DNA of 64,000 bases from Allostella vacuolata (lineage in GTDB: Bacteria > Pseudomonadota > Alphaproteobacteria > ATCC43930 > Allostellaceae). A model generated the notes under the pieces. That model saw only the letters and a program-made list of their open reading frames with translations, was not told the DNA's origin and did no database searches. The translations under genes were made by a program, and so were the position numbers. Positions 46,159 through 56,287 of this stretch are shown in pieces (the first letter of the stretch is position 1; each line of letters starts with the position of its first letter). The DNA lies in contig AP019702.1 in the NCBI GenBank assembly GCA_006739055.1, positions 4,675,388 to 4,739,387 on the forward strand. The letters run 5' to 3'.

Positions 46159-47646
46159 TCAGCGCGCCAGCCGCGCCCGCGCCTCGCGCCGTGCGATCTC
46201 CGCCTGGATCGCCTCGGTCTCCGCGGCGGCCAGTGCGGTTTCGGCCTTGAAGTCGGCCAGGCGCCGAGCCGTCTCATCGGGGGCGACCGGCACCGTCGGC
46301 GCCAGTTCGCGCAGCAGGTCGCGCCGCGTCTTCTGCGCCTCCAGCAGTTCGTTCTCGCGCTGGATACGGTCGAGGCGGGCGTCGCGCCGCCCCTGGCGGG
46401 CGGCACCGATGCCGCCGACCAGGTCGGCCAGCGTGCCAGTGGCGGTGGCGGCCGCCGCCGCCTTGTCGGCGTAGCGCGCCATGGTCAGGATGCCGGCGGC
46501 GTCCATCTCCACGGCCAGCTCGTTACTTTGGAACAGGACGTTGCGCAGCGGCAGGTGGAACAGAGTGCCGAACTGGTGGACGCCCGCCTCCCTGCTCGCC
46601 AGTTCCCGGCCCTGCTGCGTCGCCGTCAGGCGCGACGGCACCGGGTCGCGGAAGCGGATGCCCAGCGTCGGGTCCGGCCGGCGGTCGCCTTCGGGCACGG
46701 CGTGGGAGGGCCCGCCGATCGGCCCCAGGGCGAGGACGACCTCGGCGTTGGCGTTGAGGGTCTCGGCCGCTTTGGCATCGTCGCCCAGTACCACCCACTT
46801 GGCCAGTTGCCCCGGCGGGAACGGCACCTTCTCCCTCAGGATGTCGTCCTTCGCGGGGCGGCTGCCGCTCTCCGGCCAGCGCAGATGAACGCGGGCGGTG
46901 ATCGGCTCGAGTGCCACCGACAGCCTTCCCTCGGCCGCGCTCTGCTCGGTTACGCGGTCATCGAGCTGCTGCAGTGCCCGCCGCAGCTTGGCCAGAGCCG
47001 CGGCATCGGGCTGCGGGCCCATCTCAGCGAGTTGGCGGTTGATCTCGGCCACCCGCTCGCGCGCCTCGCCGACCCGGGCCGTGGCCGCCCGCAGTGCCGT
47101 GGCGGCCGCATCGGCCGCCTCGACCGCCATGGCTGCAGCGGCCTGACAGTCCCCGGTTCGGCGCGCCGCCACCCCAGCGACGGCCAGCGTCCCGACCGGA
47201 GCGCCGCCCGCAGCCAAGGTGGCGATCCCGACCGCGCTCTTCACCAGATTGCCGATGACCTGGGCGCTCTGATCCTGGGCGTCGGCATTGACTGACTTCA
47301 GCATCCCGTTCTCATGCCGGTCGATCTGCAGCGACGAGGTCTTGAACCAGCTCGACAGGCTGTTGGTGTCGATGACGTAGCGATGGGCCGGATCGGGCAG
47401 GATTCGCACGGTTGCGTCCATGTCGGCAGCAATCCGGGCCGCCGGGCTGCAGGCCACCAGCCGCCAGGTCACGACGGTGTCGAAGCTGGTGTAGGGCAGC
47501 GAGTAGGGCACGCCGCGGAAGTTCTTGGCCTGACCGAGTTCCGATACTTCGAGTTCGACGCAGCCGCCCAGGCTGAGCAGCACGCCCAGCGCCAGCAAGC
47601 TGCCAAGGCCGGATCGGCCCGTTCGATGTTGGCCGGTTCGATACAT
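46159..47646 (-). CDS. Predicted lipoprotein with coiled-coil, unknown function
   Basis: A 495-residue protein. The N-terminus has a basic region, a hydrophobic stretch and the lipobox LSLGGC with Cys29 as the lipidated residue. A domain follows with GVPYSLPYTSFDT and YVIDTNSLSSWFKTSSLQI, then a Gly/Ala-rich part and helical segments likely to form coiled coils (about 175-240 and 410-490). I do not recognise a family. Its promoter region carries three TGACG heptamers at 11-bp steps (47725-47753), correctly oriented for this gene, so it is probably under the SARP encoded at 49241. It is divergent from the YcaO gene. Confidence 0.8.
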   Translation of the reverse strand: MYRTGQHRTGRSGLGSLLALGVLLSLGGCVELEVSELGQAKNFRGVPYSLPYTSFDTVVTWRLVACSPAARIAADMDATVRILPDPAHRYVIDTNSLSSWFKTSSLQIDRHENGMLKSVNADAQDQSAQVIGNLVKSAVGIATLAAGGAPVGTLAVAGVAARRTGDCQAAAAMAVEAADAAATALRAATARVGEARERVAEINRQLAEMGPQPDAAALAKLRRALQQLDDRVTEQSAAEGRLSVALEPITARVHLRWPESGSRPAKDDILREKVPFPPGQLAKWVVLGDDAKAAETLNANAEVVLALGPIGGPSHAVPEGDRRPDPTLGIRFRDPVPSRLTATQQGRELASREAGVHQFGTLFHLPLRNVLFQSNELAVEMDAAGILTMARYADKAAAAATATGTLADLVGGIGAARQGRRDARLDRIQRENELLEAQKTRRDLLRELAPTVPVAPDETARRLADFKAETALAAAETEAIQAEIARREARARLAR

Positions 47647-47724
47647 GGACGGTGCCTCCCCTGCGCAGCCCCCTCCGGCCGGCCATCGGTCGGAACGGGC
47701 GTGAGACCTCGATCCTCCGCCGAT

Positions 47725-47753
47725 GGCGTCAACCCACCGTCAGTCGCGCGTCA
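47725..47753 (-). promoter_or_regulatory. SARP-type operator: three heptamers at 11-bp steps, lipoprotein promoter
   Basis: Read on the minus strand: TGACGCG, TGACGGT and TGACGCC, each starting 11 bp after the last. SARP regulators bind direct heptamer repeats at 11-bp spacing. The last repeat ends 78 bases before the lipoprotein start. A second dyad, ACCAC-8 bp-GTGGT (47768-47785), lies towards YcaO. Confidence 0.7.
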
Positions 47754-47839
47754 GCCACCTCTGGACGACCACACTCAGTAGTGGTTCTATCCCGTGGTAT
47801 TGCGTGCGATGGAGATCCGGCCGTCGGAGGGAGCGGGCC

Positions 47840-49183
47840 ATGCGCGACGTCCTGACAGACGCGGCCGATCTCCTGGCCGGAGGCGAGCCACCCGCGCCGG
47901 CGCACGGCGAGGCCGCCGGGCTGCTGCGGGCCCTCGACTATGCCGGCGACGGGCCGGAGGATGCTGCCGCGCGCGGCAACCGGGTTCTGCTGCTGCGCAT
48001 GGCGGCGCGGCTGCGGCGCCTCTTCGCCCTGCCGACACCGCAGGCGCCCGGGCTGGTCTTCCTCGGCGGCGAGGCCGATCCGGCGATCCTGGGCCCGGCC
48101 TTTGCCGATTGCCCGGCCGGCAGCCTCGCCGGCTCCGGTGCCCGGCTGCGCCAGGCCTTCGAAGCTTGCGTCGGCGAGGCGGTCGAGTACCTGTCTCAGT
48201 TCGCGCAGGCGGACGATCTCGTGGCCGCAGGGTCCGAACTGCCTCGCATCGCCCCATTCCCCGGGGCCGACGCGCCCGGTTGGAACGACGGCGGGGTCGC
48301 AGATGGCTGGGTGGCGGCGCGGCGGCTGAACGGCGACGCACAAGTCCTGCTGCCGGCCGGTCGCTGCCTGCGGCGCGCCGATCCGGGCGGCGGGGTCCCG
48401 CCCTTCGCCCTCTCCACCGGCTGCGCCGCCGGAGCGACCCTGGCCGATGCGGCACTGCACGGGCTGCTGGAGCTGATCGAGCGCGACGCCGCCAGCCTGT
48501 GGTGGCACGGCGGCCGCCGCGGGCGGGCCCTGACCGGCGCCGCGGGCGATGTCGCGGCCCGGTTCCTGGCAGAGCTGCGCGGCGGGGCCGGCGGCCGGCG
48601 CAGCTGGGTGGTCGACATCACCACCGACCTCGGCATTCCGGCCGTCGCCGCCATCTCGGTCGATTCCGGTGGCAGCGATCCGGGCAACGACGGCTTCGCC
48701 TGCGGCCTGGCGGCAGGCATGACGATGGCCGAGGCGGTCCGCCGCGCCCTCCAGGAGATGTGCCACATCGAGATCGCCTATGCGGTGATCGCGGCCAAGC
48801 GGGCCGAGCGCGGCGACGACGCCCTCAACCCCGCCGACCAGCGTCACCTGCAGCGCGCGCGCAGTATCCGGGCGGACTGCCCGCTGCTCCATCCGGCGAC
48901 ACATGAGGAGGCAACCGGGCCTGCCGCTTGCGCCGGCGACGAGGCGCCGCCCGAAGGACCGGCGGCATGGCAGCTCGACTGGCTGGTGCGGCGGCTCGAT
49001 GCGGCGGGCGTCCCCACCTATCTGGTCGACCTGACCCGGCCGCAGTTCGGTATTCCCGCCTGCCGCGTGGTTGCGCCCGACCTGCAGCTTGAGCCGTGCT
49101 CCCTGCCCGGAAAGCGGCTTCTACGGGCAATTCGCGAAACCGGAGGTGGCATAATCCATAGCAATGGAATTCCATTGCTGTAA
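47840..49183 (+). CDS. YcaO-family enzyme (azoline/thioamide-type peptide modification)
   Basis: A 447-residue YcaO-fold protein. The ATP/Mg-binding elements are visible: RQAFEACVGEAVEY (about 105-117), STGCAAGATLADAALHGLLE with ELIERDA (211-217), GLAAGMTMAEAVRRALQEM, and the late VDLTRPQFGIPACRVVAPDL. YcaO enzymes phosphorylate peptide amides to make azolines, thioamides or amidines in ribosomal peptides. The C-terminus ends NGIPLL and lacks the PxPxP of many cyclodehydratases. No E1/ThiF-like partner, TfuA or dehydrogenase is nearby. ATG 47840 has GGAGGGA before it. The SARP gene follows 57 bases later. Confidence 0.88.
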   Translation: MRDVLTDAADLLAGGEPPAPAHGEAAGLLRALDYAGDGPEDAAARGNRVLLLRMAARLRRLFALPTPQAPGLVFLGGEADPAILGPAFADCPAGSLAGSGARLRQAFEACVGEAVEYLSQFAQADDLVAAGSELPRIAPFPGADAPGWNDGGVADGWVAARRLNGDAQVLLPAGRCLRRADPGGGVPPFALSTGCAAGATLADAALHGLLELIERDAASLWWHGGRRGRALTGAAGDVAARFLAELRGGAGGRRSWVVDITTDLGIPAVAAISVDSGGSDPGNDGFACGLAAGMTMAEAVRRALQEMCHIEIAYAVIAAKRAERGDDALNPADQRHLQRARSIRADCPLLHPATHEEATGPAACAGDEAPPEGPAAWQLDWLVRRLDAAGVPTYLVDLTRPQFGIPACRVVAPDLQLEPCSLPGKRLLRAIRETGGGIIHSNGIPLL

Positions 49184-49240
49184 CATCGGACGGGTCTTCG
49201 GGCAGGTGGCCTTCCACGTCAGCCACAAGGACAGTCCCGC

Positions 49241-51319
49241 ATGCTTGCTGCCGGCGCCTCCTCCGTAATCGACGCGCGAACCGCGCCGCAACCTGCCGGT
49301 CCTGGCGAACGGCGCGACTTGGCGGTGTCGCTGCTGGGCGGCTTCTCCGCCGGCGCCGGCGATCGGCCGATTGATCTCCGCGGCCGCAAGTCCTGCGCCT
49401 TGCTCGGCTATCTGGCCCTGAGCGAGACCGGCAGCGAGACGCGCGAGCGGCTGGTCGGACTGCTATGGAGCGAGTCCGATGACCAGCGCGCCCGCGGATC
49501 GTTGCGCCAGGTCCTGAGCGAGCTGCGCCAAGCCTGCGATCGCGCGGGCTATGCCGGCCTGCGTGCCGACAAGCTGGCGATCGGCATCGAACGACCGGGC
49601 CTTGCCGTCGACATCTGGTCGGTCGTCACCCTGGCGGAGCAGCAGCAGGTACACGCTCTGCTGCTCAACGGCCGCCGCCTGACCGAGACCATGCTGGAGG
49701 GCTTCGAGGACGTCGATCCGGCCTTCCGGGTCTGGCTGCTGGCACGGCGGCAGACCTTGCACGACCGGCTGGTGCGGGCGCTGGAGGGCGGGCTGGCGGC
49801 AGACGGGGTCGAGGCGCGGCGCAAGGCGCAGATGGCCGAGGCCCTGCTCAACCTCGACCCGACACACGAGCAGGCCTGCCGCCACCTGATGGCCAGCCGC
49901 GCCGCGGCCGGGGACATCGCGACTGCCCTGCGCCTCTACAAGTCGCTGTGGGACCTGCTCGACGACGAGTACGGCATGGAACCGTCGGCCCCGACTCAGG
50001 AGCTGGTGGCGGACATCAAGAGCGGCGCCTTCGAGGCCCGGCGCGCAGCGCCGGCGCCGGCCGATGCCGAACCGCTGTTTGCGCCGGGGCTGATAACAAC
50101 CGGGGACCCGGGAGGCGCCCCCGCCCGCGTCGCCCCGCGCCTGGCACTCGCCATCGTGCCGTTCGCCATCGAGGGCGTCGATCCCGACAATATCGGCTTC
50201 CTGCAGCGCTTCCGGCATCACCTCATCGCCTGCCTGGCGCGGTTCCGGGAATGGCGGGTGACCGAGCGGGCGGAGGCCGGCGGGGACGGCGCGCGCTACG
50301 CCATCCTGGTCAGCGTCTACCAGAGCGATACGGCCCTGACCCTCATCCTCAGCGTCAAGGACATTGCCAGCGAGCAGCACATCTGGAGCGACCGGGTGCA
50401 GCTGCGCCCCGACAACGTCTTCGAGGTGCAGCAGCGCATCGTCCAGCGCCTCACCGTCGCCCTCAACGTGCAGCTGTCGGCCGAGCGGCTGATCCGACTC
50501 GCCGGCCATCCCAACCTGCCGATCGAGTTCCACGACCGCTGGCTGCTGGGCCAGGAGCTGCTGGCGAAGCGACGACCGGCCGACTGGGAGCGCGCGACCG
50601 CGATCTTCAACGACATGATCCGCGAGGCGCCCGGCTTCGGCCCGGCCTACAGCAGCCTCGTCCAGCTGCGCAACACCGCCCACATCGTCCATCCCGGCTG
50701 CCACCGCACCGCCGCCCAGCAGCGCGAGACGCTGATCCTGGCAAAGGCGGCCGCGCGCATCGACGCAATCGATTCCCGGGCACAGCTCTGCCTTGGCTGG
50801 GCCTATCTCTTCGATGGGCAATTCGAGCCGGGGCTGCTGCATTTCGGGCTCGCCTGCGACCTCAACGACGCCGATCCGTGGACGCTCGCCTCCGCCGCCC
50901 ATGCCCACGCCTTCGCCGGCGAGACGGCGCGGTCGCGCGAACTGGCAGACCGGGCGATCGAGCTGGCGCAGGTGCCGAGCGCCCTGCACTGGACCTATCG
51001 TGCGGTCATGCACTTCATGTGGGACGACCCGGCCGGCTGCATCGCGGCGGCCGACCGCTCGGGCGACGCCGCCGCCCTGGCACCGATGTGGCGGGCCGCG
51101 GCCCTGGCCCAGCTCGGCCGGGTCGGCGAGGCACGGCTGGAGGGACGGCGCTTCCTCGACAGCATGCGACGGCAATGGCGCGGGACCGGGCCGGCGACCG
51201 ACGCTGAGGTCGGGCGCTGGATCATGCAGCTCTTTCCGATCCGCCATGGGCGCGACCAGGCGCGCCTGGCCGGCGCCATCACGCTCGCCGGCATTCCGGC
51301 GGCGGCCGCCTCCCCCTAG
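49241..51319 (+). CDS. SARP-type transcriptional regulator (OmpR-like DNA-binding, BTAD and TPR-like regions)
   Basis: A 692-residue regulator. Residues 28-110 form an OmpR/SARP winged helix (LAVSLLGGFSAGAGDRPIDL, LLWSESDDQRARGSLRQVLS). BTAD follows (about 115-265), ending LRLYKSLWDLLDDEYGMEPS. A middle domain (300-420) resembles the CadC/adenylate-cyclase-linked part with LALAIVPFAIEG and EQHIWSDRVQ. The C-terminal part is TPR-like helical. There is no ATPase domain. SARPs activate secondary-metabolite genes by binding heptamer repeats, and three such arrays exist in this locus. ATG 49241 follows AAGGACAG. It ends convergent with the 127-residue protein gene. Confidence 0.9.
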   Translation: MLAAGASSVIDARTAPQPAGPGERRDLAVSLLGGFSAGAGDRPIDLRGRKSCALLGYLALSETGSETRERLVGLLWSESDDQRARGSLRQVLSELRQACDRAGYAGLRADKLAIGIERPGLAVDIWSVVTLAEQQQVHALLLNGRRLTETMLEGFEDVDPAFRVWLLARRQTLHDRLVRALEGGLAADGVEARRKAQMAEALLNLDPTHEQACRHLMASRAAAGDIATALRLYKSLWDLLDDEYGMEPSAPTQELVADIKSGAFEARRAAPAPADAEPLFAPGLITTGDPGGAPARVAPRLALAIVPFAIEGVDPDNIGFLQRFRHHLIACLARFREWRVTERAEAGGDGARYAILVSVYQSDTALTLILSVKDIASEQHIWSDRVQLRPDNVFEVQQRIVQRLTVALNVQLSAERLIRLAGHPNLPIEFHDRWLLGQELLAKRRPADWERATAIFNDMIREAPGFGPAYSSLVQLRNTAHIVHPGCHRTAAQQRETLILAKAAARIDAIDSRAQLCLGWAYLFDGQFEPGLLHFGLACDLNDADPWTLASAAHAHAFAGETARSRELADRAIELAQVPSALHWTYRAVMHFMWDDPAGCIAAADRSGDAAALAPMWRAAALAQLGRVGEARLEGRRFLDSMRRQWRGTGPATDAEVGRWIMQLFPIRHGRDQARLAGAITLAGIPAAAASP

Positions 51320-51369
51320 CGTCCGGATCCGCGGCTCCGGGGGGCGCGAGAGAGGCGGCGTGCCCCGTC

Positions 51370-51753
51370 TCAGCTGCAATGCGCGACGGTGTAGTCGCCC
51401 ATGCGCATGTTGTGGAAGCGGTCGTTGTCGGTGATCTCGTGCGGCTTGTGGAAGGCATGGATCTCGTAATAGTCGGGCAGCGGATAGCTCTTGCGACCGA
51501 TCTCGTTCTCCGAATGGGCAATGATCTCCGGCGCCGGCACCAGCAGATGCAGCGTGCCGACGACGCACTGCTCGACATGGATCGTGTGGATCTCGAACTC
51601 GCCGCTCGGCCAGGTGGCGATGATGCCCTCGGCCGCGAGCTGGGATTCGAACTGCTGCTTGTCGGTGGGACGCGGCACCTGGCCGCGCGCCCACTTCTTC
51701 ACCAGCTCCCCGAACTTCTCGAAATTGCTCACCGTGAAACGATTCAAGGCCAT
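51370..51753 (-). CDS. 127-residue protein of unknown function in the YcaO/SARP locus
   Basis: A 127-residue protein without signal peptide: MALNRFTVSNFEKFGELVKK, an amphipathic N-terminal helix, a central strand-rich region (TIHVEQCVVGTLHLLVPAPE), and a His/Asp/Tyr-rich C-terminal half ending MGDYTVAHCS. I do not recognise a family. The ribosome site GGAGGAGG is very strong, implying high expression. It follows the peroxidase gene by 49 bases across a perfect hairpin. Two cysteines, one next to last, and terminal Thr/Cys/Ser make it a possible substrate for the YcaO enzyme, but it may equally be an independent small enzyme or binding protein. Confidence 0.75.
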   Translation of the reverse strand: MALNRFTVSNFEKFGELVKKWARGQVPRPTDKQQFESQLAAEGIIATWPSGEFEIHTIHVEQCVVGTLHLLVPAPEIIAHSENEIGRKSYPLPDYYEIHAFHKPHEITDNDRFHNMRMGDYTVAHCS

Positions 51754-51781
51754 GGCTTCTCCTCCTCCGGGCTGGGTGGAA

Positions 51782-51805
51782 TGACGGGGCGACGACGCCC
51801 CGTCA
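51782..51805 (-). terminator. Perfect hairpin between the peroxidase and the 127-residue protein gene
   Basis: TGACGGGGCG-ACGA-CGCCCCGTCA is a 10-bp stem with a 4-base loop that includes the peroxidase stop codon. No T-run follows. It could attenuate, stabilise or process the mRNA so that the two genes are expressed at different levels. Confidence 0.6.
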
Positions 51806-53530
51806 CAGAAAGGACGGCTGGGCCCGCTGGAGTTCGGGCCTGGCCGCCGCGACGAAACGGATGAGCGCTGGCATCGACCTGATCTGCGACAGCGTGTCCA
51901 CCAGCGGGTGGAGCAAGGATGCCGACGGGCCGTAGATCATGCAGGCCAGCTTGCAGAGCTTCCCGTCGCCGGCTTCGGCCAGGGCGCCGAAGATCACCTC
52001 GGCCGCGATCACCGAGGCCAGCGGGCCGAGATGCCGGCCGTCCGATGGCGGCTGGGCCGCCTCGAACAGGGTGAAGAAGGCGAGCGGCGGGTCGGCTGCG
52101 ACGGCATCAATGTCGTCCCGGTCGAGCAGGTCGCCGCCGACGGCGTCGAGGAAGTCGCGGATGCCCTGTTGGCTTTGCGGCCAGTTGGCGAGCAGGGGCG
52201 CCAGGCCGGTGGTGCCGGGCGCGCGCGATTCGACGTTGCGACGCAGTGCGGTGACCGACCAGATGCCGGCGTCGCCGCCGCGCGCCAGGTCGCGATGGGC
52301 CAGGCCGTCGGTTGCCCCCGGCGAGATCACGTCGAAGGCGCTCGTCTGCGGCCCGATCCGTCGGCTGAGGTTGGGCCGCACATCATCGACCACATCGAAG
52401 AAGTGCCGCCACTGGATGACCTGTTCCCGGCGCAGCGGCAGGCGCCATGGTACCCGCGACGAGGTGGTCCACAGGATGTTATCGAGCGAGCCCGGCTGGT
52501 CGTTGGCGACCAGCGGCTCGACCGGCAGGTCGTTCAGCCGATAGACCGGCCGGACCATGGCGTGGCCGAAGCGGCCGACCGCGTGGGAGAATTCCAGCGG
52601 CAGTCCACCCTCCGACGCCTTGGCGAGTCGGCTGTTCACGACGTCCCGATCGATGAAGATCGGCGTGCCGCTGTATCGCCGGTAGATCGCCGGATGCAGG
52701 ATCCGCGGCAACAGGTCGTGGCGGATGCAGCTGCGGAAGACCGCCCCCACGGCCTCCATGGCGAAGGCAAAGGGGACCTCCATCCCGGACCCGCAGGCCG
52801 CCGGCGCCAGCGCCGCGGCCCGCTCCAGCACCGTATTGTGCAGGAGATGGAAAACGGCGGTCAGCTGCGCCAGGATCAGGTTGTCGTCGTTGCGCGGGTC
52901 GGCGACCAGCGCTTCCGTCAGGTTGCCGGAGCCGGGTCGGCCCTCGCCGACGGGCGTGGGCGCGCGGCCGAGATCGCGGCCAACCGTCGGGTCGTCGGCC
53001 GCCGGTCCGACCCGCAGCCGGCAGCGCTGGCCGGCGTCGAAGCGGTAGGCGTGCGGGCAGCCGGCCGGGCCGGTGCCGTAGAGCGTCTCCAGCCGCAAGC
53101 GGACGGCACGGTCGTTGCGGAAGGCGCCCGCGCCGGTCGCCATCGCCAGCGGCGACGGCACCGTCAGGACCAGGTCATGCAGGACCAGTTGGGCGAAATA
53201 GGTGTAGCCCGAGGGGATGTCGGGGTTCTCCCACGGCTCCAGCCCGGCATCGAGCGGCCCGCCCGGCCAGATGTCAGCTCCGCGGGCGAGGCACCGTCCG
53301 AGGCGGGCGAGCAGGTCCCGCCCCCCTTGGTCTCGCGTGCTCTGCTGCCGGGAGCGGCCGAGTGTGCATCGCTCGGCGGGTGCCGGCGTGCCCAGGAAAT
53401 GGCGGAACCCCGCCGCCGGGCCCTGCCCGTCCGGCGGCAGCGGCGGCGCCGCGCCGTTGACGCTGCGGACCGCCGGCGGCGCGACCGCGGCGGGGGGCGG
53501 TATCGGGCAGTTGGTCCCGTGTGACGGCAT
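51803..53530 (-). CDS. Animal-type haem peroxidase family protein
   Basis: A 575-residue peroxidase of the peroxidase-cyclooxygenase (animal haem peroxidase) superfamily. The distal His118-Asp119 lies in YTYFAQLVLHDL, DPRNDDNLILAQLTAVFHLL followed by HN matches the conserved helix, and the proximal His323 is in EFSHAVGRFGHAMVRPVYRL. No signal peptide is apparent: the N-terminus is Pro/Ala-rich. Such enzymes oxidise halides, phenols or protein side chains with hydrogen peroxide. It shares a divergent promoter region, with two SARP-like arrays, with the CxxCH protein gene. Confidence 0.88.
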   Translation of the reverse strand: MPSHGTNCPIPPPAAVAPPAVRSVNGAAPPLPPDGQGPAAGFRHFLGTPAPAERCTLGRSRQQSTRDQGGRDLLARLGRCLARGADIWPGGPLDAGLEPWENPDIPSGYTYFAQLVLHDLVLTVPSPLAMATGAGAFRNDRAVRLRLETLYGTGPAGCPHAYRFDAGQRCRLRVGPAADDPTVGRDLGRAPTPVGEGRPGSGNLTEALVADPRNDDNLILAQLTAVFHLLHNTVLERAAALAPAACGSGMEVPFAFAMEAVGAVFRSCIRHDLLPRILHPAIYRRYSGTPIFIDRDVVNSRLAKASEGGLPLEFSHAVGRFGHAMVRPVYRLNDLPVEPLVANDQPGSLDNILWTTSSRVPWRLPLRREQVIQWRHFFDVVDDVRPNLSRRIGPQTSAFDVISPGATDGLAHRDLARGGDAGIWSVTALRRNVESRAPGTTGLAPLLANWPQSQQGIRDFLDAVGGDLLDRDDIDAVAADPPLAFFTLFEAAQPPSDGRHLGPLASVIAAEVIFGALAEAGDGKLCKLACMIYGPSASLLHPLVDTLSQIRSMPALIRFVAAARPELQRAQPSFL

Positions 53531-53575
53531 GGGTCTCGCTCGGCTGGGATGATCGACGGGAAGTGGACCATGGCC

Positions 53576-53604
53576 GGCGTCAATCGAACGTTAGTCGGGC
53601 GGAC
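53576..53604 (-). promoter_or_regulatory. SARP-type operator, peroxidase promoter
   Basis: On the minus strand TAACGTT and TGACGCC begin 11 bp apart; a weaker third repeat, GTCCGCC, lies 11 bp further upstream. The last heptamer is identical to the last one of the lipoprotein array. It ends 45 bases before the peroxidase start. Confidence 0.55.
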
Positions 53605-53644
53605 GATCGCGGACCGGGCCCGACGAAGTGCCGGCCTCGGGCGC

Positions 53645-53673
53645 TGACGGTCGGCTGACGTTCGCCTGACAGC
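53645..53673 (+). promoter_or_regulatory. SARP-type operator, promoter of the CxxCH protein and protease genes
   Basis: TGACGGT, TGACGTT and TGACAGC start at 53645, 53656 and 53667, exactly 11 bp apart. The array ends 80 bases before the ATG at 53754, almost the same distance as in the lipoprotein promoter (78), and has the same orientation to transcription. Confidence 0.72.
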
Positions 53674-53753
53674 CGGGCTGCTTGCATGCCACCAGCCGCG
53701 GGCGAGGGAGCGGGGGCGCCCCGCCCCGTCACCGGCAGGGGAGATTGCCCGAC

Positions 53754-55385
53754 ATGTCCAGCCCGAATCGCTTCCGCACCATCGCGCTCGCCGCCGGCAT
53801 GCTTGCGGCCAGCGTCCAGGCCCAGGCCCAGGCCCAGGTCCCGGGGCCATCAGCAGATCCGGCCTGCTTCCCCGAAGCGGCGGCCATCCCTGGCTGGGGC
53901 CCCGCCATGAGGCGGACGGTTGTCGTCCACGACCCGGAGGTGTTCCGGCAAGCCGACTTCTCGCTGGCGCGGACGCTGGGCGCCATCGTCCGCTCGAACG
54001 GGCTGGAGGACAGCGGCGGCGAGCGGGTGGCCCTGCTGCAGAGCATGGTCCGCAGCTTCGCCCGCGATACCTTCGTGAACGGCGAGGGTGGGCTGGTGAC
54101 CGTCGCAGACCCGCGCCCCAACGAGGCGGCGCTAGACCCGGCGGCAATGCTCCAGAGCACGGGCAAGGACGGTTTCCGCCCGGTCGCCGTCTTCAACCGC
54201 CTCGACCTGGCGCCCGACGACTGGTCGAACTGCGGCGAGCACCGCATCGTCTACGCCAAGGGCGACGGGTCGGATCGCTCCGACCGGATGACCCTGATCT
54301 TCGAGGCGAAGCTGCGCAATCCGGGCGGCCGCAAGCATGCCTGCCGCCCGATCGCGCAGTTCTGGGACGGGCTGTCGGCGCCGGGTCTGACCTCGTCCGA
54401 TCTGGCCCGCAGGCTGGCTGCGTTCTTCTATGCCGGCGACCTCGACGGCGACGGCAGCTCCGACTTGCCGGGCGGTGGGGCGGTGATCCAGGCCCTGCAT
54501 CTGGGCCAGGAGGTGGGCCAGGTTCGTGGCAACCTGTTCATGGCCAACCCCGGCGACCATCCCTGGCAGTTGCGCGAATGGCGCGTCGCGTCCGGCGCCG
54601 ACAATGCCCCGGTCTTCGTCGCCACGACGGTGAAGGAGAACCCGCATCCGGCGCTGTACGAACCGGACGGGCCGGCGACGCCGGCCGAGCAGGTGCGGCA
54701 GCGGCAGGATTTCCTGGGCGCCCTGATCGGCCAGGCGGCCGCCAATCTCACCGAGCTCGACCGCGCCGCCGCCCCGGTCGACCGCGGTCGGCTGCTGGCA
54801 GAGCTGGGTGCCGGCTTTCCCGGTCGCTTCGACAGCTTCGTCAGCATCTCGCATGACATCCCGGCCGCGGTCGACGACCCGGTGCGGCGCGGCACCGGCA
54901 ACAGCATGCTGCTGCGGTCGCTGGAGGCGCGCCTGGCCGGCCTCTCCCGGCCCGATCGCTGCCACATCACGCCGGAGCAGTTGCTGAACCGTGCGGGGGC
55001 GATGAGCTGCGGCGGCTGCCACCAGTTCTCGGTCGGCAAGGAGATCGCCCCGCAGGTGCGGTGGCCGGCGGCATTGGGGCGCTTCGTCCATGTCGATGAG
55101 AAGGGCGACCTGTCGCCGGCGCTGGAGGACCATTTCCTGCCGGAGCGGCGACGCGGCCTGACCCGCTACCTCGCGGAAACCGCCATCCCCCTGGCCTCGA
55201 CCGCGCCCGTCGCCACCGCCGCGGGCTCGTCCCCGGTATCGCTGCTGCTGCGCCGCCTGCCGGAGGCTACGACCCGCCGCGACCGGCTGGAGCTGCTGCG
55301 CGGCGCCGAGGAGGCGGCCGCCGCCGAACGCCGACGCGAAGCCGCCCGGCCAGGTGCCTTCACCCCCTTCCGGCGCTCGCACTGA
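53754..55385 (+). CDS. Secreted protein with a single CxxCH haem-binding motif
   Basis: A 543-residue exported protein. MSSPNRFRTIALAAGMLAAS followed by VQAQA looks like a signal peptide. The main body has RRTVVVHDPEVFRQADFSLA, FNRLDLAPDDWSNCGEHRIV and FWDGLSAPGLTSSDLARRLA. A c-type haem motif is at Cys419 (MSCGGCHQF), after which the sequence runs SPALEDHFLPERRRGLTRYL. The tail is Arg/Ala-rich. I recognise no named family. A covalent haem could pass electrons to or from the peroxidase-related chemistry. It starts the operon with the two protease genes. Confidence 0.78.
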   Translation: MSSPNRFRTIALAAGMLAASVQAQAQAQVPGPSADPACFPEAAAIPGWGPAMRRTVVVHDPEVFRQADFSLARTLGAIVRSNGLEDSGGERVALLQSMVRSFARDTFVNGEGGLVTVADPRPNEAALDPAAMLQSTGKDGFRPVAVFNRLDLAPDDWSNCGEHRIVYAKGDGSDRSDRMTLIFEAKLRNPGGRKHACRPIAQFWDGLSAPGLTSSDLARRLAAFFYAGDLDGDGSSDLPGGGAVIQALHLGQEVGQVRGNLFMANPGDHPWQLREWRVASGADNAPVFVATTVKENPHPALYEPDGPATPAEQVRQRQDFLGALIGQAAANLTELDRAAAPVDRGRLLAELGAGFPGRFDSFVSISHDIPAAVDDPVRRGTGNSMLLRSLEARLAGLSRPDRCHITPEQLLNRAGAMSCGGCHQFSVGKEIAPQVRWPAALGRFVHVDEKGDLSPALEDHFLPERRRGLTRYLAETAIPLASTAPVATAAGSSPVSLLLRRLPEATTRRDRLELLRGAEEAAAAERRREAARPGAFTPFRRSH

Positions 55386-55441: not shown

Positions 55442-56287
55442 ATGCGACCCCATCTGCTCGCGATCCTGGCCACGGCGCTGCTGCTGGCGCCGAGCCTGGC
55501 ATCTGCCCGGAAAGCCAAACCGGACGCATACCCTTCTCCGCCGGACCGTCTCTCCCTGCGATCAGTCGAGGCCCTGCAGCAGAGCACGCTCGAGCCGCGC
55601 CTGGGCAATGGCAGCGTCGCCGAGGCCCGGGACTGGCCGGCCAGCTTCTTTGCCCGCGAGGCCGGCTGCACCGCCACCTTGATCGCGCCACGGGTGCTGC
55701 TGACCGCCGGCCACTGCATCGCAGACGGCGGCCGGGTCGAGATCGCCAGCCGCGGGCTCCTCTACGAAGGCACCTGCGAAGCCCCGAGGCCGGGCTACCC
55801 GACGGTGCAGAGCGCCGACTGGATGCTGTGCCTGATGGATAAGGGCGTGCCCGACCTGCAGTACGAACGTGTCAGCCTCGATGCGAAGCTACTGGTGCGC
55901 AACCGCCAGCTCCTGCTCGCCGGCTACGGCTGCACCGCCATCGGCGGCGGACGCGACGAGCAGTTCCGCACCGGGCCGACCTTCGTCGAATTCCTGCCGG
56001 GCGAGATCGCGGACCAGCCGCACTGGGCCGCTACCTTCTCCGGCCGGCGGCGTGGCGACGCCTTCGTCTGCGAAGGAGATAGCGGCGGCGCGGTCTTCGT
56101 CGAGCAGCCGCTGGCCGCCCGCCGTCTGGTCGTCGCGGTCAATTCGCATCGCGACGGGGGCGGCGAGGGCATTTCCTTCCTCTCCGTCCTCAGCACCGCC
56201 GCCGCCCGGACTTACGTCACGCGCTGGGCCGATCGCCATGGTCAGCGTCTTTGCGGAGTGCACGCCGATGCATCGCGCTGCCGCTAG
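55442..56287 (+). CDS. Secreted trypsin-like serine protease (S1)
   Basis: A 281-residue precursor with a signal peptide (cleavage near SLASA, residue 22). The catalytic triad of the chymotrypsin fold is complete: His91 in LLTAGHCIA, Asp126 in SADWMLC and Ser214 in CEGDSGGAV. Six or more cysteines support disulfides in the periplasm or outside. A short propeptide-like segment precedes the fold. It starts 57 bases after the CxxCH gene and overlaps the subtilase gene by 20 bases, so the three are one operon. Confidence 0.9.
   Translation: MRPHLLAILATALLLAPSLASARKAKPDAYPSPPDRLSLRSVEALQQSTLEPRLGNGSVAEARDWPASFFAREAGCTATLIAPRVLLTAGHCIADGGRVEIASRGLLYEGTCEAPRPGYPTVQSADWMLCLMDKGVPDLQYERVSLDAKLLVRNRQLLLAGYGCTAIGGGRDEQFRTGPTFVEFLPGEIADQPHWAATFSGRRRGDAFVCEGDSGGAVFVEQPLAARRLVVAVNSHRDGGGEGISFLSVLSTAAARTYVTRWADRHGQRLCGVHADASRCR

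Follow-up and report, generated by a model that had tools for sequence, protein, structure and literature searches.

Do the heptamers that recur at 11-bp steps in three promoter regions of an Allostella vacuolata gene cluster serve as operators, and if so, for which regulator? Antibiotic clusters of Streptomyces are classically switched by SARP operators, and a gene for a SARP-type regulator lies between the repeats. In this study we analysed a window of 64,000 nt of contig AP019702.1 and concluded, with a probability of roughly 0.9, that the arrays are predicted operators of this SARP, which is encoded within a YcaO/peroxidase cluster. The arrays were found to recur beside a matching SARP in some twenty other alphaproteobacterial lineages and are thus almost certainly its (predicted) binding sites. 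If they are SARP operators, the arrays are expected to travel together with the SARP, to keep an 11-bp step, to follow the direction of transcription and to lie at a fixed distance from the -10 element. All four properties were found, and at the level of sequence they support this interpretation.

Heptamer arrays and the regulator between them

All coordinates are positions within the window unless stated otherwise, and all nine heptamers were re-read directly from the sequence. The arrays and the -10 candidates that follow them are:

47725-47753, minus strand: predicted operator array 1, TGACGCG-N4-TGACGGT-N4-TGACGCC, 78 bp before the lipoprotein start
47712-47717, minus strand: candidate -10 element GAGGAT, 7 bp after the last heptamer of array 1
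53576-53593, minus strand: predicted operator array 2, two heptamers, TAACGTT-N4-TGACGCC, 45 bp before the peroxidase start
53562-53567, minus strand: weak candidate -10 element TCCACT, 8 bp after array 2
53645-53673, plus strand: predicted operator array 3, TGACGGT-N4-TGACGTT-N4-TGACAGC, 80 bp before the start of the CxxCH protein
53682-53687, plus strand: candidate -10 element TTGCAT, 8 bp after array 3

The direct repeats are 11 bp apart, as in SARP operators. An earlier sequence-only reading had described heptamer arrays at all three promoters. Its triples in arrays 1 and 3 stood, as did the distances of 78 and 80 bases to the start codons of the two best arrays. The weak third heptamer that it had assigned to array 2 (minus strand, 53604-53576) did not stand: this sequence, GTCCGCC, matches TNACG only at C4 and G5, and because it is no real copy array 2 was counted as two heptamers. 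The arrays had also been said to share one orientation relative to the downstream gene, and re-reading agreed, since all three read along the direction of its transcription. Array 1 is in addition located upstream of ycaO, which is divergent from the lipoprotein gene.

How unusual the arrays are was evaluated by pattern scans only, covering the window and the 5.83-Mb genome. When up to 3 mismatches were allowed, the triple pattern gave 4 matches in the window, against 2.9 expected; with 0-1 mismatch exactly arrays 1 and 3 were recovered and nothing else. The sequence-only reading had proposed a genome scan with the triple motif, and the locus was indeed enriched: the genome contains five triple-array sites with 0-1 mismatch, two of them here, while about 0.003 are expected in 6 kb (Poisson P ~5e-6 for two in 6 kb). 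Single TGACG-N6-TGACG pairs occur 17 times in the genome, several of them over gene ends, and are not diagnostic. As single pairs are not rare, we placed the weight on the triple arrays and on the comparative evidence rather than on any one pair. Four near-matches in the same genome (L002, L003, L005 and L009) were considered as targets and rejected, as they lack a -10 element at the right distance or lie inside coding sequence.

The sequence-only reading had placed a SARP gene between the arrays, and it was found there:

49241-51319, plus strand: SARP-type regulator, 692 aa, Pfam BTAD (PF03704) at E 1.9e-10

The protein consists of an OmpR-like winged helix (residues ~25-120), directly followed by the BTAD (~120-268) and a C-terminal part of ~420 residues. 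Its recognition helix reads ...SLRQVLSELRQ... and contains S93. Used as a profile, the N-terminal 275 residues matched AfsR (8hvr) at E 2e-10 over winged helix and BTAD, and also EmbR. In the structure model (pLDDT 92) AfsR and EmbR were likewise the nearest folds, with Z 14-15 over residues 24-268, well above all other rows, and residues 24-120 matched the folds of AfsR, PrrA and PhoB. The Pfam family Trans_reg_C was not reached for the window protein. No N-terminal receiver domain was found: Pfam gave no receiver family, residues 1-24 are mostly of low confidence and the winged helix begins at ~25.

The arrays in related lineages

The gene for the CxxCH protein was absent from all three congeners examined, and conservation was therefore sought in more distant relatives. 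A search of 385 class-level genomes with p127, a protein encoded next to the peroxidase, yielded two genomes with the same core of YcaO, SARP, p127 and peroxidase. Their SARPs are 53% and 46% identical to that of the window, and upstream of their peroxidase genes 11-bp repeats were present in both directions, with the half-site TCACG replacing TGACG. When GTDB contigs were scanned with the SARP alignment, 26 loci were recovered, two of which were the same contigs as these first relatives, and searches with p127 added six further loci. About thirty related loci, from Bradyrhizobium, Roseomonas, Mesorhizobium and others, thus contain an orthologous SARP, mostly together with YcaO, a p127-like protein and the peroxidase.

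In an unbiased test on 33 loci, repeats of all 1024 pentamers were evaluated over the whole range of spacings from 6 to 30. The 11-bp repeat TCACG-N6-TCACG was found in 24 of the 33 loci, while other spacings averaged 1.23 loci, and the only other pentamers near this signal were TCACG in shifted form. The loci without TCACG mostly use TGACG (the window, L041, L049) or TAACG (L058, L059, L070).

The position of the arrays was also conserved. In most lineages 36-46 bp separate the end of the last half-site from the start of the peroxidase gene (45 bp in the window), and where p127 comes first the array precedes p127 (L035, L050, L051). The gene divergent from the peroxidase has a second array in three loci, where it encodes an S53 peptidase (L055), a vanadium-chloroperoxidase-like protein (L039) or a 192-aa protein (L057). 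In Bradyrhizobium further arrays precede genes for proteins of 184 and 108 aa, and there is also an array that points away from ycaO; in L057 a relative of the 184-aa protein, judged by eye, stands elsewhere in the cluster and still has an array.

For the -10 analysis 50 arrays were aligned by their last heptamer. In the hexamer 8 bp downstream, A occupied position 2 in 72% and T position 6 in 68% of the arrays (background 22% and 19%). Of the 50 arrays, 26 had the pattern xAnnnT at offset 8 and 11 had it at offset 7; no other offset exceeded 6. When each lineage was represented by a single array (n=21), the counts were 7 at each of these two offsets and at most 3 elsewhere. SARP promoters are described as having 11- or 22-bp repeats with the last repeat 8 bp from the -10 element (PMC10936776); the array set shows this distance to a predicted -10 element, the window's own -10 candidates being weak. 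Six genomes of relatives were then scanned with array and -10 pattern combined. Of 13 matches, 11 were inside the cluster, and the reversed pattern, used as a control, gave a single match. In four of the genomes the fractions inside the cluster were 3/3, 3/3, 3/4 and 2/2; the only match of the fifth was elsewhere and the sixth had none.

In Mesorhizobium we also observed more TCACG arrays before a gene for an N-acetylmuramoyl-L-alanine amidase (Amidase_2; L051 7133-7814, L052 7731-7772), and a homologue of the window's CxxCH protein is encoded near the SARP.

Cluster genes and half-site drift

From left to right, the cluster contains genes for the lipoprotein (minus), YcaO (plus), the SARP (plus), p127 (minus), the haem peroxidase (minus), the CxxCH protein, a trypsin-like protein and a subtilase (all plus):

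46159-47646, minus strand: lipoprotein, 495 aa, transcript behind array 1, lipobox-like LSLGGC near the N-terminus
47840-49183, plus strand: YcaO protein, 447 aa, Pfam YcaO at E 1.3e-48, upstream neighbour of the SARP, conserved in relatives
51370-51753, minus strand: p127 family protein, co-conserved with the SARP, C-terminus R-x-GDYT-x3-C
51803-53530, minus strand: animal-type haem peroxidase, Pfam An_peroxidase at E 3.3e-6, conserved in relatives, behind array 2
53754-55385, plus strand: exported CxxCH protein, 543 aa, transcript behind array 3
55442-56287, plus strand: trypsin-like gene, after the CxxCH gene
up to 58610, plus strand: subtilase gene, after the trypsin-like gene

The YcaO protein is SagD-like according to NCBIfam, with a match below the cutoff. 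For p127 no Pfam or NCBIfam family was matched, its structure model gave no convincing fold match, and homologues were detected neither by a scan of viral contigs nor by a single-sequence scan of genome contigs. Homologues are present in ~20 of the related loci; the 20 members aligned all have an invariant Cys near the last residue, within the C-terminal motif R-x-(G/A)-(D/E)-Y-x4-C. As p127 adjoins a SagD-like YcaO enzyme and a haem peroxidase, it is a candidate substrate of YcaO modification of an unfamiliar kind.

The second base of the half-site varies among the relatives, and TGACG appears in three separate places on the SARP tree (the window, L041 and L049). Residue 93 in the recognition helix is Arg or Lys only in combination with TCACG, in 14 of 23 TCACG loci and 0 of 7 others (Fisher P 0.007, for related sequences that are not independent). 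Contrasts between relatives fit this: the window has Ser with TGACG while L055 and L053 have Arg with TCACG, and L041 has Tyr with TGACG while L042 has Arg with TCACG. A simple recognition code at residue 93 was rejected, since TCACG is also combined with His, Ser and Val, and in distant paralogues with Ala or Thr, and since column 35 ranks higher in a scan of all columns. The distribution is suggestive of residue 93 as a partial tracker of the second base. In the alignment AfsR R87-T88-Y-A-S91-R92-L-R94 corresponds to RQVLSELR of the window SARP, which places Q90 at AfsR T88 and S93 at AfsR S91. In AfsR, T88 contacts G-36 of the template strand, and S91 contacts the backbone beside that base (PMC10936776). 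With afsS TTCAGC overlaid on xTCACG, a register that we infer, the variable second base would be position -36.

The genome contains two clear SARPs. The other one (genome positions 573236-575197) is followed by a convergent TPR gene with a TGACG-TCACG-TCACG triple at 11-bp spacing in its promoter (within 570000-582000, locus L110; the array ends near L110:6655, minus strand). A TAACG-TCACG-TCACG triple with GATCAT 8 bp downstream is located at genome position 3730806 (L111:6796-6824, plus strand); the operon that it precedes, at 3.73 Mb, encodes a lipoprotein, a trypsin-like protease and a CHAP protein and is a candidate distal SARP target. Since there are only three TCACG pairs in the genome, the two SARPs may use different half-sites. 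Distant SARP paralogues, ~30% identical, also adjoin TCACG or TGACG pairs at 11 bp (L018 1195-1411, minus; L027 4117, minus; L016 17, plus), and this operator type may therefore be general in alphaproteobacterial SARPs.

Taken together, these observations can be tentatively joined into a broader picture, which we hold to be somewhat less probable than its opposite. It would comprise a widespread alphaproteobacterial operator-regulator system in which the second base of T-N-ACG has drifted repeatedly (TCACG, TGACG, TAACG) and is partly tracked by S93. The half-sites of the two SARPs, TGACG here and mostly TCACG at the paralogue, would keep their regulons apart, and the SARP of the window would control an unfamiliar YcaO-made product built on p127.

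Competing explanations and known systems

Several observations weigh against the arrays being SARP operators. Besides the weak -10 candidates of the window, array 2 has only two half-sites, and these are of different type (TAACG and TGACG). A clear array built from one pentamer is missing in four of the 33 loci: L048 has a TAACG/TGACG mixture upstream of the peroxidase, like the window's peroxidase array, L044 is a short contig, and in L054 and L072 none was found. Furthermore, no conserved lipoprotein or CxxCH gene accompanies the arrays elsewhere, and the CxxCH homologue in Mesorhizobium has no array of its own. The sequence-only reading had linked all three transcripts to one regulator. This link is supported, most strongly for peroxidase and p127 owing to the conserved array position; for the lipoprotein and CxxCH genes, which lack such conservation, the link depends on the quality and orientation of their arrays and on the parallel offered by divergent genes in relatives. 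Accordingly, the SARP might act on part of this set only, with peroxidase-p127 as the true target and the other two arrays spurious or repressing, as only the peroxidase array is conserved in place. We consider this improbable, given that arrays 1 and 3 are the best in the genome and that a second array also stands before the gene divergent from the peroxidase in relatives (L055, L039, L057).

A slightly less probable alternative is that the arrays are boxes of another response regulator of the OmpR/PhoB family, encoded elsewhere, with the SARP merely nearby. The SARP winged helix itself resembles PhoB and PrrA (Z ~8), and the boxes of PhoB repeat at 11 bp, with a unit that on one strand is related to TGACA. 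Against this, array matches in the genomes of relatives are almost wholly confined to the SARP clusters, the arrays co-occur with the SARP across lineages and recur at SARP paralogues, and with respect to transcription they read the opposite way from PhoB boxes. A further alternative, coincidental repeats in GC-rich DNA that were chosen after the fact, would agree with the chance-level count under 3 mismatches and with the 17 single pairs. The low probability of two near-perfect triples and the step, position and -10 distance conserved across lineages speak otherwise, and the comparative data refute this explanation.

If the arrays are SARP operators, SARP molecules would bind side by side on one face of the helix, at T(G/A)ACG half-sites 11 bp apart, the recognised half-site differing between lineages (TCACG, TGACG, TAACG). 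The bound SARP would replace the -35 element and recruit RNA polymerase to a poor -10 element that follows the last half-site by 7-8 bp. The lipoprotein, peroxidase-p127 and CxxCH-protease transcripts would thereby be switched on jointly, probably by activation rather than repression, in response to a signal presumably sensed by the C-terminal part of the SARP.

SARP-type operators would thus occur outside the phylum where such sites were worked out. In the open-access literature, which leaves subscription papers uncovered, neither proteobacterial SARP operators nor this cluster were the subject of any paper that we found. A conserved operator grammar beside orthologous alphaproteobacterial SARPs would make regulator targets predictable from sequence, and it points to a conserved, unstudied YcaO/peroxidase/p127 cluster. 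The repeated one-base change of the operator among relatives offers a natural series for how a SARP recognition helix reads DNA.

The closest known system is AfsR with the afs box of Streptomyces coelicolor (PDB 8hvr, 8jke, 8k60; PMC10936776). There, as predicted here, 11-bp direct repeats overlap the -35 region with the last repeat ~8 bp from a poor -10 element, and the protein binds side by side; like the window SARP it combines winged helix and BTAD, and the recognition helices of the two align. In contrast to AfsR, the window SARP is alphaproteobacterial, has another C-terminal part in which no NB-ARC domain was recognised, and is predicted to use the half-site T(C/G/A)ACG, whose likeness to TTCAGC, the -35 element of afsS, is limited to TCA. 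The small Streptomyces SARPs ActII-ORF4, RedD and OtcR also lie inside the cluster they control and use heptamer repeats 11 bp apart (rule in PMC10936776), but they are short, without a large C-terminal part, read other heptamers and belong to antibiotic clusters of known product. PhoB shares the winged-helix fold and the 11-bp direct repeats of its pho box, whereas it has a receiver domain and no BTAD, and, with respect to transcription, the pho box is read on the opposite strand. EmbR of Mycobacterium tuberculosis (2fez) shares the fold of winged helix and BTAD (Z 14) but has a C-terminal FHA domain and other targets.

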